Assembly: GCF_026151205.1 (NCBI RefSeq)
Contig: NW_026971774.1
Coordinates: 90,001-154,000, forward strand
DNA from: Bolinopsis microptera
Taxonomy: Eukaryota > Ctenophora > Tentaculata > Lobata > Bolinopsidae
Direction of reading: 5' to 3'
Length of the DNA: 64,000 nt
The number at the start of each line of letters is the position of its first letter. Positions within the stretch are counted from its first letter, which is position 1. The notes beneath the pieces were generated by a model, which was not told the DNA's origin, searched no databases, and worked only from the letters and a program-made list of their open reading frames with translations. Made by a program: the position numbers and the translations under genes. Shown in pieces: positions 4,034-62,100 of the stretch.

Positions 4034-6289
4034 AGGGAGGTAAGGATGTTGTCTGCTACTTCATCAACTGGGCCTGGTACCGACCTGGAGCTGGTAAATA
4101 TGTCCCGGAGGATATTGACCCTAAACTCTGCACTGTAGTTAACTACGGTTTCTCTGTTCTGGGAAACAACGGAAAGCTCAGGATGCACGACAGCTGGGCT
4201 GATAGGGACAACAGTGAGTTTACACTAGCTTTTTAATGTCTGATCATTTATTAATTATTAGCAACATCGTGTTGGGATATTAAGACTTTGTGTCTTCTTG
4301 AAAGCTTATTGTTTTAAAAAGTGATTCCTCAGAGTTCTACGAGAGGACGGTTGCACTGAAGAAAGCACCCGGCTCTCGAGTAAGGAAAGTTTTCCTCGCC
4401 ATTGGAGGATGGAACGACAGTCTGGGACCCAAATACTCCAACATGGTTTTGAAGAAAGCTAGCAGGTTAGGAACACTTCATAAAACTAGCATTCAGCGCT
4501 CTTCCAAGTTGAAGGTCGACTTTTATATCGAACTCTGCTCCGAAATTGTCACCTACAAAATATATGGTTTACGTTAAAATGTACATGTTTCAATTTGATA
4601 AACCCAACAGGAAAGCCTTCATCGACGATGTAGTCCCCTTCCTTCTGAAGTACGGATTTGACGGTCTGGATCTGGACTGGGAGTACCCTCAGTGCTGGCA
4701 GGGAGACTGTAAGAAGGGAAAGCAGGGAGAGAAGAAAGCTTTCGCTGACTGGTGCGCTGAACTGAAGGCTGCCTTCCAACCTCACGGTCTCCAGCTCAGT
4801 GCTGCAGTATCTGCCAGCAAGACCATTATTGATGCTGGATATGATGTGCCCAGGATCGCCAGGAGTCTGGACATCCTCAACCTGATGACCTACGATTTCC
4901 ACGGATCTTGGGAGAAACAGACCGGTCACAACGCGCCTATGTATCCTTGCGAGGGAGATGCCATCCCCTTCTTCAACGTCGTTAGTAGAGTTACTAATGT
5001 TGTTACCTAGTAACTGTAACCTAGTAACTGTAACCTAGTAACTATCCCCTTCTTCAACGTCGTTAGTAGAGTTACTAATGTTGTTACCTAGTAACTGTAA
5101 CCTAGTAACTGTAACCTAGTAACTATCCCCTTCTTCAACGTCGTTAGTAGAGTTACTAATGTTGTTACCTAGTAACTGTAACCTAGTAACTGTAACCTAG
5201 TAACTATCCCCTTCTTCAACGTCGTTAGTTGCAAGATACTTTATACTGTCACCTAGTAACTGTCACCTAGTAACTGTCACCTAGTAACTGTAACCTAGTA
5301 ACTGTAACCTAGTAACTGTAACCTAGTAACTGTAACCTAGTAACTGTAACCTAGCAACTGTAACCTAGTAACTGTAACCTAGTAACTATCACCTAGTAAC
5401 TGTAACCTAGTAACTGTAACCTAGCAACTGTAACCTAGTAACTGTAACCTAGTAACTGTAACCTAGTAACTATCACCTAGTAACTGTAACCTAGTAACTG
5501 TAACCTAGTAACTGTAACCTAGTAACTGTAACCTAGTAACTGTTTCCTTGCGAGGGAGATGCCATCCCCTTCTTCAACGTCGTTAGTTGGAGGATACTTT
5601 ATTTCCCTGTCACAGTCGCTGCTTGGTGATGGTTTTTAGAAAGACATTATCCTGCTGTTGAATTATTTCTCTATTAAAGGCTACTAAAAAATTTAAATAT
5701 AAAAACCGTTCAGGACTCTGCCGTAGACCACTGGATCAAGAGTGGATTCCCAGCCAGGAAGATTGTAATGGGACTCCCCATCTACGGACGATCCTTTACC
5801 CTCGCGGATCCTTCAAAGCACGGCATTGGTGCTCCCGCTAAAGATGGAGGTCAAGCTGGAGTCTGGACTAGAGCCAAGGGCTTCCTTGGGTACTACGAGG
5901 TAAACTTTATTTGATCGGGTATCAGGAATAGTATGAGTATTGCTGAGCCACCAGACTCTTACACTAAATGTAAAAGGGGAACAATACAATTCTCCTCCTA
6001 ATAACCTATAAAACTAAAACTAAACAACCCTCAGATCTGTCTGAACCTGAAGAACAAGGGCTGGAAGGAGGTGAAAGGAAGTGACTGTGTTGTGGGACCC
6101 TACGCCTACAAGGGAAACCAGTGGGTCGGGTATGACAGTCTCGAGTCTGTAAAGTATAAGATGGAGTATATCAAGAAGAAGGGGCTGATGGGAGGCATGA
6201 TCTGGGACGTTACTATGGACGACTTCAAGGGGGCGTGCGGTCAGGGCAAGAACCCATTCCTCACGGCTATGAGAAGACATCTTGCTTAA
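4034..6289 (+). CDS. GH18 chitinase, 3' five exons (partial)
   Basis: Secreted glycosyl hydrolase family 18 enzyme that hydrolyses chitin beta-1,4 links. Exons 4034-4213, 4333-4465, 4611-4980, 5714-5899 and 6035-6289 join in matching phase with AG/GT borders and end at a TAA. They encode about 373 residues. Seen motifs: the strand-3 LAIGGW, the catalytic [10 protein letters not shown] (DxxDxDxE with the proton-donor Glu), [16 protein letters not shown], and a terminal [12 protein letters not shown], all as in the AMCase/chitotriosidase family. The protein stops right after the barrel, with no chitin-binding domain. The first visible exon starts at the strand-1 region ([11 protein letters not shown]), so only the signal peptide and a few residues lie off or in the satellite to the left. 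The donor of exon 3 is embedded in a tandem repeat. Identity is near certain; whether it is chitinase or an inactive relative is settled by the intact catalytic motif. Confidence 0.95.
4963..5587. repeat. Minisatellite built from the chitinase exon 3 end and donor
   Basis: The exon end ATCCCCTTCTTCAACGTC followed by donor GTTAGT occurs five times (about 4963, 5044, 5127, 5208 and 5563), separated by the 14-bp CTAGTAACTGTAAC unit. Only the first copy is continuous with the chitinase reading frame. The last copy carries a longer stretch of exon (CTTGCGAGGGAGATGCC), suggesting that it descends from the original junction and that the array expanded between duplicated junctions. Confidence 0.92.
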
Positions 6290-6431
6290 ATAACCTTTCT
6301 TTAAACTTGTTTTAATGTTAACGTTTTGAATTTAAAACAACTTCATTTAAATGTTTAATTTGTATTAACTTTAATTCAACAAGTATCGGAACTTAACACA
6401 CAAAGAATCTGGAAATATATCTAAGATTTTA

Positions 6432-59100: not shown

Positions 59101-62100
59101 GTTACGAACCTAGGAGTGGGGTTACCTGGTTACTAACCTAGGAGTGGGGTTGCCTGGTTACTAACCTAGGAGTGGGGTTACCTGGTAACGAACCTAGGAG
59201 TGGGGTTGCCTGGTTACCTGGTTACTAACCTAGGAGTGGGGTTGCCTGGTTATCTGGTTACTAACCTAGGAGTGGGGTTGCCTGGTTACCTGGTTACTAA
59301 CCTATGAGTGGGGTTGCCTGGTTACCTGGTTACTAACCTAGGAGTGGGGTTACCTGGTTACTAACCTAGGAGTGGGGTTGCCTGGTTACCTGGTTACTAA
59401 CCTAGGAGTGGGGTTACCTGGTTACTAACCTAGGAGTGGGGTTGCCTGGTTACCTGGTTACTAACCTAGGAGTGGGGTTACCTGGTTACTAACCTAGGAG
59501 TGGGGTTGCCTGGTTACCTGGTTACTAACCTAGGAGTGGGGTTGCCTGGTTACCTGGTTACTAACCTAGGAGTGGGGTTGCCTGGTTATCTGGTTACTAA
59601 CCTAGGAGTGGGGTTACCTGGTTACTAACCTAGGAGTGGGGTTGCCCGGTTACTAACCTAGGAGTGGGGTTGCCTGGTTACCTGGTTACTAACCTAGGAG
59701 TGGGGTTACCTGGTTACTAACCTAGGAGTGGGGTGGCCTGGTTACCTGGTTACTAACCTAGGAGTGGGTTGCCTGGTTACCTGGTTACTAACCTAGGATT
59801 AGGGTTGCCTGGTTACCTGGTTACTAACCTAGGAGTAGGGTTGCAGGTCTTCATGAGAGTAGTGCTGCTGCCCGAGGTAGAGTTACAAGCTGACGTGTTG
59901 TTCTGAGCCCAGACCCAACTACTCATGTTTACTGAGTTTTGTATGAGGTGCTCCACTGCTGACATTCCGAACCATTTACACACGTTTGGTATGCCTTTAC
60001 TCCTCTTCCTCTTAGTGAGGTGGGTGTACCTGGATAATAATAACAGGTGAGGTGGGTGTACCTGGATAATAGTAACAGGTGAGGTGGGTGTACCTGGATA
60101 ATAATAACAGGTGAGGTGGGTGTTGAGTGCACACCCTCTAGATGCACACATTCTCCTGAAAGTAAGAGTAGAAATACTGATAAATGACAGTGTCTCACTT
60201 GTCTAGATGGAAGATGGTCTGATTAGGTTCTGTTTGGAGTTGATCAGGAGCTGTCGTCTCCAGCAGGTTTGTCTGACTCCTGTCTGAGGAGGGGTCTTTC
60301 TCCGTCTGTGTCTCTGAATCTGACGTTACGAACCTGATCTTCATGTCTTGAGAGGACACTCCTGAAATTAATAGTGCTATTACCATGAGGCGGGGGCGGG
60401 TGGACAAAGGTTCGTCAGCTCAGCAGCCCAGAAGTGAAAGTCAGTCCTGATCGGCACAAGACTGAGGATGATACTTCTAGATAATAACACAAACTCCCAG
60501 TATGATATAAGTCTAACCTGAAGTAGTCTCTGAAGCTGTACCATCCTTCTCTGTTGATTTTCTAAGTATGGAGGGGCGCCCACACGGTACAGTACCGTTA
60601 CTCTTACCAACTCCAGGTACAGTACCGTTACTGCGGGGCTTGGAGGCATCTCCGTTGTCTCTTACTCTGTTACTTGACTGATGGAGTTGCCTGAGAATAG
60701 GGACTGTTACCATGGTTACTAATAGTGAGTTACTAAGTTACTTAGTAACAGATCTATAACTTACTAAGATATGGACTGTTACCATGGTTACTAATAGTGA
60801 GTTACCTCTCTATCACTAAGTGATTACAACTTCCTCTCCTATTCTGAACCGTCATTAACATTAACACAAATAACACAATATACTACTACACTACAAAATA
60901 TAACACTACTGCGAATATTATAAAACTAAAATACAGATTTTAGTACAAGGAAAATTAATGTAGCCCAATTGAAGGAAATCTAAGTGGGTGAGTGAGTGAA
61001 GTTGTATGAATTGTTGTTATGACAATGGGTTACCATGGTAACAATGGCTACAACGAGTAACCATAATAATAATGGTAATAATGGCTACAATGTGTTACCA
61101 TGGATACAACTTTACAATACAAACTATGAGTTACATAGTAACTGATTTAATTATTTTACCTGACTGGGAGAAACACCACAACTATTGCACCGCGGAAGAA
61201 AAAGACGCGAATGTAGCAGAATGTAAACATGACAGGAGTCAGAGGAAGAAATGAGTAGAATGATAATAAAGGGGTAAAAATAGCAATCAATTGTTTATTG
61301 AGATAACAGCTTATCCTTCTTTTGTATAGGAGTTGACAAAGAGAGAGCATTTCAAACAACGTCAATCAGAGCTGAAAAAAGAGCACAAAGAACTGGTTGT
61401 CATGGCAACAAAGGTCTGTAACAGGAAGATAGAGAGTTTGCTAATAATGAGGGATATACTACTGCTCGCTTACTCTGTCAATTTGTAACATCACTAACTC
61501 ATCATATTTTACTATATGTAATATATAATATATACTAGTAATCCTTGTAATTATTACCTCATCAATTGTCTTGCTATCTTAATTGTAATTACCAATTACA
61601 AATAATAAAGTAATAAGATACACACACGTAACCAGTTCATTAAAATGTTCATTTGTGGTGCAATTTCAGGTAGTTTACAGTAACACGTACACCTTGTAGC
61701 ATGTATATTGTATATATACATTATACATGCTACAAGTTTATAAACTACAGCAATGAGTGCTGTTGTACACTCATTATTTTATCATTTCAACCTGTTATTT
61801 CATTAATTACCTGCTATTTTATTAATTAAACCAAAACATCACTTAAAAATATTATACACATTAAATTCAAGTGGGACATGATCATGATATACATCAGTCA
61901 TTAAGAACATAACTGCATGGATAATTAATGATATACGATAGTACATAATTACATAATTACATATAATCATGTAGCGACAGTAAGACTGTGTACACAGATA
62001 GTTGTAACATGACCAATATAGCTGCTTATTAAGGTTGCAAAGTAGCATTACATAGTTACAAGGTTGCAGGTTGTACTGAGTACACTACAAGCCTTTGCCC

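Follow-up and report, generated by a model that had tools for sequence, protein, structure and literature searches.

Why should the units of tandem repeats in an animal genome repeatedly run across the edge between an exon and the intron beside it? The question is raised by 64,000 nucleotides of the ctenophore Bolinopsis microptera (assembly GCF_026151205.1, contig NW_026971774.1, positions 90,001 to 154,000 of the forward strand). This whole stretch is called the window, and positions are counted from its first letter. An earlier note on this DNA described seven minisatellite arrays as anchored exactly on gene boundaries, judged their placement very unlikely by chance, and supposed tandem duplication to be favoured or tolerated at boundaries. 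I propose that tolerance is the answer. Quite probably the arrays are tandem duplications made in place in a genome rich in minisatellites, common within short introns, largely removed from exons and tolerated where they cross a boundary.

The arrays were detected with Tandem Repeats Finder, which lists all of them except the two-copy array of a BTB gene, and exon edges were checked by gene model. They are as follows, with a slash marking the boundary between exon and intron.

1..3675, forward strand: 47-bp array, end of a chitinase linker exon plus donor (PTEPIP..CCCAG/GTATTT)
4963..5590, forward strand: 81-bp array interspersed with a 14-bp satellite, end of chitinase exon 3 plus donor, 5 copies
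6960..7232, reverse strand: 45-bp array, first BTB-labelled gene, its last codons and stop in 6 copies
8842..8916, reverse strand: second BTB gene, 32 nt from its last codons in two copies 42 bp apart
15124..15384, reverse strand: 68-bp array, acceptor plus start of B9D1-like exon 2 (15165-15086), 4 copies
49739..57073, reverse strand: 37-bp array, end of exon 7 of a 754-aa gene plus donor (GATAATAAAAA/GTTAGT), 188 alignable units
58041..59844, reverse strand: 36-bp array, 754-aa gene, end of exon 5 plus donor (CCTAG/GTTAGTAACC), 55 alignable 21-bp cores
60015..60123, reverse strand: 32-bp array, 754-aa gene, exon 5 acceptor with the start of that exon (exon start 60029 used)

Six of the seven arrays first reported match their description. 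The second BTB gene is the exception: only its last codons are duplicated, the stop TGA following the first copy alone. The copy numbers given for chitinase exon 3, B9D1 and the first BTB gene stand, while about 195 copies at exon 7 become 188 that can be aligned and the more than 50 at exon 5 become 55 cores. The exon 7 array fills nearly the whole of a 7.3-kb intron, and 159 of its 188 units, the real donor counted in, carry a perfect AAAAAGTTAGT. The array at 1-3675 was absent from the first list. Its 77 alignable copies encode the linker exon end TTEPKPTEPIP, followed by GTATTT, and the copy joined to the body of that exon would fall to the left of the window. A relative, P0002, reads TTEPGPTEPIPES at the matching place.

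Do these arrays seek out boundaries? A wider sample came from kinesin genes of the same genome, whose exons were located by a profile search blind to repeats (109 matches, with letters fetched for part only). It holds 130 boundaries (59 donors and 71 acceptors) from 33 merged pieces totalling 78,790 bases, 72 of them placed by both neighbouring exons and 58 by one; the sample excludes profile ends close to 1 or 327 as well as those lacking an acceptable splice site. Words of 20 nucleotides that recur as a near copy within their own piece were counted in exons, across boundaries and in introns (0-150 bp from the boundary). For the kinesins the search for copies stayed inside a piece and reached no further than 1.5 kb, and 16 of the loci fetched measure just 545-1396 bases. 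If duplication were even and only copies inside exons were removed, spanning words and intron words would be duplicated in a ratio of 1. A hotspot at boundaries would raise the ratio above 1.

The ratio in the kinesins is 0.54 (95% bootstrap interval 0.23-1.01). The share of duplicated words is 0.7% for exons, 4.2% for words that span a boundary and 7.8% for introns, an exon to intron ratio of 0.09, and the same order holds with words of 16, 24 or 30 nucleotides. Counted per boundary, a spanning word is duplicated at 7 of the 130 (3 donors, 4 acceptors), a word in intron bases 0-20 at 12, and one in bases 20-60 at 13. The window behaves likewise: 16.7% at boundaries, 31.2% in nearby introns and 6.4% in exons, with 5 of 30 boundaries spanned (3 donors, 2 acceptors) against about 9 predicted from intron coverage. 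These 30 belong to three genes, so that the linker donor of the array at 1-3675, the BTB ends and the other window genes fall outside the count, in which one chitinase acceptor was placed 3 bases off. In both samples, then, spanning words are duplicated at about half the intron rate, and the argument that chance cannot account for the arrays fails in these genes. The measured ratio suggests tolerance, perhaps with mild loss, and the half of the original supposition that spoke of tolerance fits the gradient from exon through boundary to intron.

Nor are the units anchored exactly on boundaries. In 12 arrays the boundary falls at a random place within the unit, the exon's share ranging from 0.19 to 0.94 with a mean of 0.51 (Kolmogorov-Smirnov [KS] p = 0.70, with basic units set by the analyst, a choice that was the analyst's own). 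An earlier version, in which a script chose higher-order periods of up to 263 bp, gave KS p = 0.037 and a mean of 0.32 and is less trusted.

These results bear on the idea that exon edges promote duplication or amplification, by such means as R-loops, microhomology between splice sites or proto-splice words. Arrays at eight gene edges in a single 64-kb window speak for it, as do the seven spanned kinesin boundaries. There is, however, no peak at boundaries, the spanning ratio and the uniform phase of the units go against any favouring, and further arrays in the introns of the same window genes stay clear of edges (13433-13610, 14588-14804, 57165-57303 and 45722-46871). I consider such a hotspot unlikely.

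Several points weigh against tolerance as the full account. The bootstrap interval just touches 1.0, so an equal rate is possible, and 2.7% of resamples exceed 1. The sample is small: seven spanning cases, one gene family, and 58 boundaries placed from a single exon. Selection against spanning copies could mask a weak bias towards boundaries. The purge of exons is incomplete in the window, where 6.4% of exon words are duplicated. Finally, among 23 kinesin introns seen from both sides, the sole one with duplicated words (L035) is also the sole one in which they span a boundary, a donor. That case by itself leans towards a hotspot, but it is a single case.

The spanning kinesin arrays are these.

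C5, donor after the SKLT motif: 53 bp, 2 copies
C2, acceptor before VFTPDTRGSQDNVFED: 49 bp, 7 copies
C12, donor after NTSLSELG: 32-36 bp, with a 21-base donor word present in 50 perfect copies, real donor counted in
C13, donor after SSRSHA: 38 bp, 2 copies
C13, acceptor before GGNSMTLM: 23 bp
C12, acceptor before the SYLEIYQEEIRDLL stretch: 158 bp, 2 copies
C12, acceptor, second case: array overlapping the exon by 5 bases only

Motifs at kinesin boundaries, such as SKLT, are conserved in kinesins. All seven acceptor copies at one locus (L042) keep their AG; at another (L038) the donor copies are degenerate and were missed by the count of 20-base words. Since kinesin genes have boundary arrays too, the phenomenon is not peculiar to the window. 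This recurrence also bears on whether the arrays, or their copy numbers, are errors of assembly. Contig C15, which holds the window, is small (167.5 kb, where the contig of the P0121 record has 173,224 bp), which might invite that suspicion; the genome analysed has 264.65 Mb in 232 contigs. The pattern nevertheless recurs on C2, C5, C12 and C13, where four arrays have only 2-7 copies, and an artefact is hardly credible. The published assembly of the species is reported to place 97.23% of bases in 13 chromosome-scale scaffolds (PMC10232365).

Why, then, are there so many arrays in one window? Kinesin introns are short: 65 rough estimates, which leave out gaps of at least 12 kb, run from 107 to 3570 bp with a median of 261. 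The units of spanning arrays measure 23-158 bp, and the introns of the window genes are array-rich, with four times the kinesin share of duplicated words. Duplications of this size in such introns will often cross an edge. Tandem repeats make up 28% of a non-random sample of 188.5 kb, of which C15 supplied about half. One stretch on another contig (L025, C2:500001-510000) consists of tandem repeats of period at least 10 in 9,868 of its 10,000 bases. At C3:9154012-9154485 two adjacent myosin-head matches cover the same stretch of the profile (105-167 and 102-167), which may mark an exon duplication.

Where an array crosses a splice site, which copy is used? The answer draws on two gene models, besides that of the B9D1-like gene, whose spliced protein matches Pfam B9-C2 at 4.1e-38.

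4034..6289, forward strand: chitinase (GH18) gene, exons 4034-4213, 4333-4465, 4611-4980, 5714-5899 and 6035-6289
Reverse strand: 754-aa gene, first five modelled exons 60674-60518, 60361-60199, 60029-59829, 57592-57496 and 57137-57013
Reverse strand: 754-aa gene, last four modelled exons 49704-49386, 48269-48099, 45588-45454 and 44912-44181

The chitinase exon start at 4034 is fixed by the acceptor CAG and by the reading of P0002, and P0001 reads IPFFNV-DSAV over the exon 3 junction. Of the five donors there, only the first gives an exon free of stops. At B9D1-like exon 2 it is only the last of four acceptors, the one beside the exon body, that gives no stop. In the 754-aa gene the next exon stays open with a single perfect donor in each donor array, the one adjacent to the exon: 57013 among 159 at exon 7 and 59829 among 40 at exon 5. 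The remaining 158 and 39 decoy donors lead to a stop before or within the next exon.

The 754-aa gene also has a database counterpart. Its first eight listed exons match LOC134825650 isoform X2 (Bolinopsis microptera), from which the ninth (44912-44181) is absent, and the 456-aa model built from the eight is an exact substring of database protein P0121, junctions at three arrays included. P0121 agrees with the model at the exon 5 acceptor, the exon 5 donor and the exon 7 donor, and lacks the model variant built on the first exon 5 acceptor. Across the acceptor junction P0121, P0123 and P0124 read LD(K/R)YTHLTKR (LDRYTHLTKR in the latter two), so the last exon 5 acceptor is used; P0122 reads LYAHLTKR there and is not decisive for the choice. 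The same junction reading rules out the 32-bp array at 60015-60123 as coding sequence, which three units (96 bp) would have allowed by keeping frame. Judged by predicted and assembled proteins, the stop-free copy in the splice cases tested is the one adjacent to the exon body, and the decoy sites are presumably not spliced.

Are the decoys kept for a purpose, such as regulation of splicing, service as ratchet points or tuning of intron length? Four arrays have 357 donor copies that can be aligned, and 356 of these keep GT intact, which speaks for such a function. The raw counts of changes at these GTs looked low, and selection on them was considered for that reason, but other pairs of neighbouring columns within these arrays are about as well conserved as the GT columns (combined p = 0.55), and the idea was dropped. 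The copies look homogeneous, not selected. Moreover, in the two arrays where use of a decoy was followed through, it ends in the stops described above. Functional decoys are thus very improbable.

A different origin would be a dispersed element or satellite that inserts at splice sites, in the manner of introners. Some arrays (chitinase exon 3, B9D1-like and kinesin locus L057) do contain palindromes of the GTTAC type and the CTAGTAAC satellite, and a palindrome, GTTACCATGGTAAC, is dispersed, with 786 sites in the genome against 1 for a reversed control. The units themselves, however, carry the host gene's own coding sequence. The exon 5 word has all 28 of its copies at one locus, and the kinesin word of the C12 donor has all 50 in one intron and none elsewhere. 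For the 37-bp unit, with 134 copies, those among the matches listed lie in the exon 7 array. As the two words tested in full are each confined to a single locus, the source of those arrays was the exon edge, not a mobile element. An inserting element is accordingly a very poor candidate in general.

The palindromes may have another part to play. At chitinase exon 3 and at one kinesin acceptor on C12, a GTTAC/GTAAC satellite lies between two longer copies of the exon edge, and the joint between units of the B9D1-like array contains GTTACCATAGTAAC. Palindromes prone to form hairpins may help to start some arrays, which I offer as a lead. Within the window, GTTACCATGGTAAC occurs 26 times with at most two mismatches, against 0.3 expected (for example at 61029-61042, 7842, 13698, 15244, 49506 and 60706). 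Some copies lie in coding exons, where they read SNHGNV (exon 49704-49386, and also in P0121). This palindrome resembles the RFX X-box. A 14-bp satellite of the ACCTAGTAACTATC type lies at four places within 7 kb (3795-4014, 5001-5543, 6766-6959 and 10085-10358). Pfam finds no domain in the first BTB-labelled protein, whose name is that of the earlier note.

The preferred account, duplication in place with tolerance at boundaries, can be put as a series of steps. Segments of about 20-160 bp would duplicate where they lie and then be amplified by slippage or unequal exchange. Copies wholly within exons would mostly be lost, because they alter the protein, unless they are in frame. Copies within introns or across an edge would persist: the first donor or the last acceptor, beside the exon body, would still be used and the mature message would be unchanged. 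Arrays of this kind would be neutral. With introns often only 110-260 bp long, many intron duplications must touch an edge, and those that cross one would lengthen the intron, which fits the original suggestion that introns expand outward from their splice sites. Where a stop codon is duplicated, the first stop would be used and the remainder left untranslated. A gene with matches to Tudor and Schlafen AlbA_2 has a 27-bp tandem repeat inside its open frame (27264-27337); the repeat keeps frame, which is what survival of such duplications in exons would predict.

The earlier note knew of no boundary-anchored satellites as a genome-wide habit. They have a precedent in amphioxus, where minisatellite duplications of exon-intron boundaries are called mirages (PMC3087553 and PMC3902484). 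They were described in Adh3 and in the globins BflGb6 and BflGb9 (PMC3087553), with two haplotypes differing in length for one globin mirage; like repeats occur in troponin C and PGBD5, and those of Adh and troponin C are reported to generate no aberrant mRNAs (PMC3902484). In amphioxus the tandem units span 5' or 3' boundaries, and many carry AG and GT signals. Here donors and acceptors are spanned in the window and the kinesins alike, and the signals are kept as counted above. Where mRNA was reported undisturbed in amphioxus, one ctenophore gene has a database protein that uses the exon-adjacent copies. The ctenophore arrays are the same kind of thing. They differ in lineage, in reaching about 190 copies and 7 kb, in including a stop-codon case and in being set against a measured intron background, whereas PMC3087553 and PMC3902484 report single genes. 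As far as searches show, these four features (lineage, copy numbers, stop-codon case and background measurement) are new; no ctenophore report of boundary arrays was found in the literature searched, most subscription papers being outside its coverage.

Two other known processes invite comparison. Tandem duplication of AGGT creates extra splice signals, a trait shared with the ctenophore arrays. There a new intron arises, whereas the ctenophore arrays lie at the edges of introns taken as pre-existing. Intron gain by duplication of AGGT-bearing sequence is reported for potato RdRp (PMC4974935). Insertion of the introner type puts one unit at many loci, unlike the exon 5 and kinesin words.

What do the arrays mean for the biology of the animal? 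The phenomenon known from amphioxus as mirages extends to ctenophores, with a rate measured in one gene family, and no boundary-specific process is needed to account for it. More tentatively, and with somewhat more doubt than confidence, I suggest that a few percent of splice sites in this genome stand beside arrays of identical decoys (exon tail plus donor, up to about 190 of them), of which only the exon-adjacent copy is used. Position rather than sequence would then decide the choice (first donor, last acceptor), and boundary arrays would offer introns a general way to lengthen in repeat-rich animals. The arrays are ready-made tests of competition among identical splice sites, and, if the suggestion is true, the genome would amount to a large natural experiment on positional splice-site choice.

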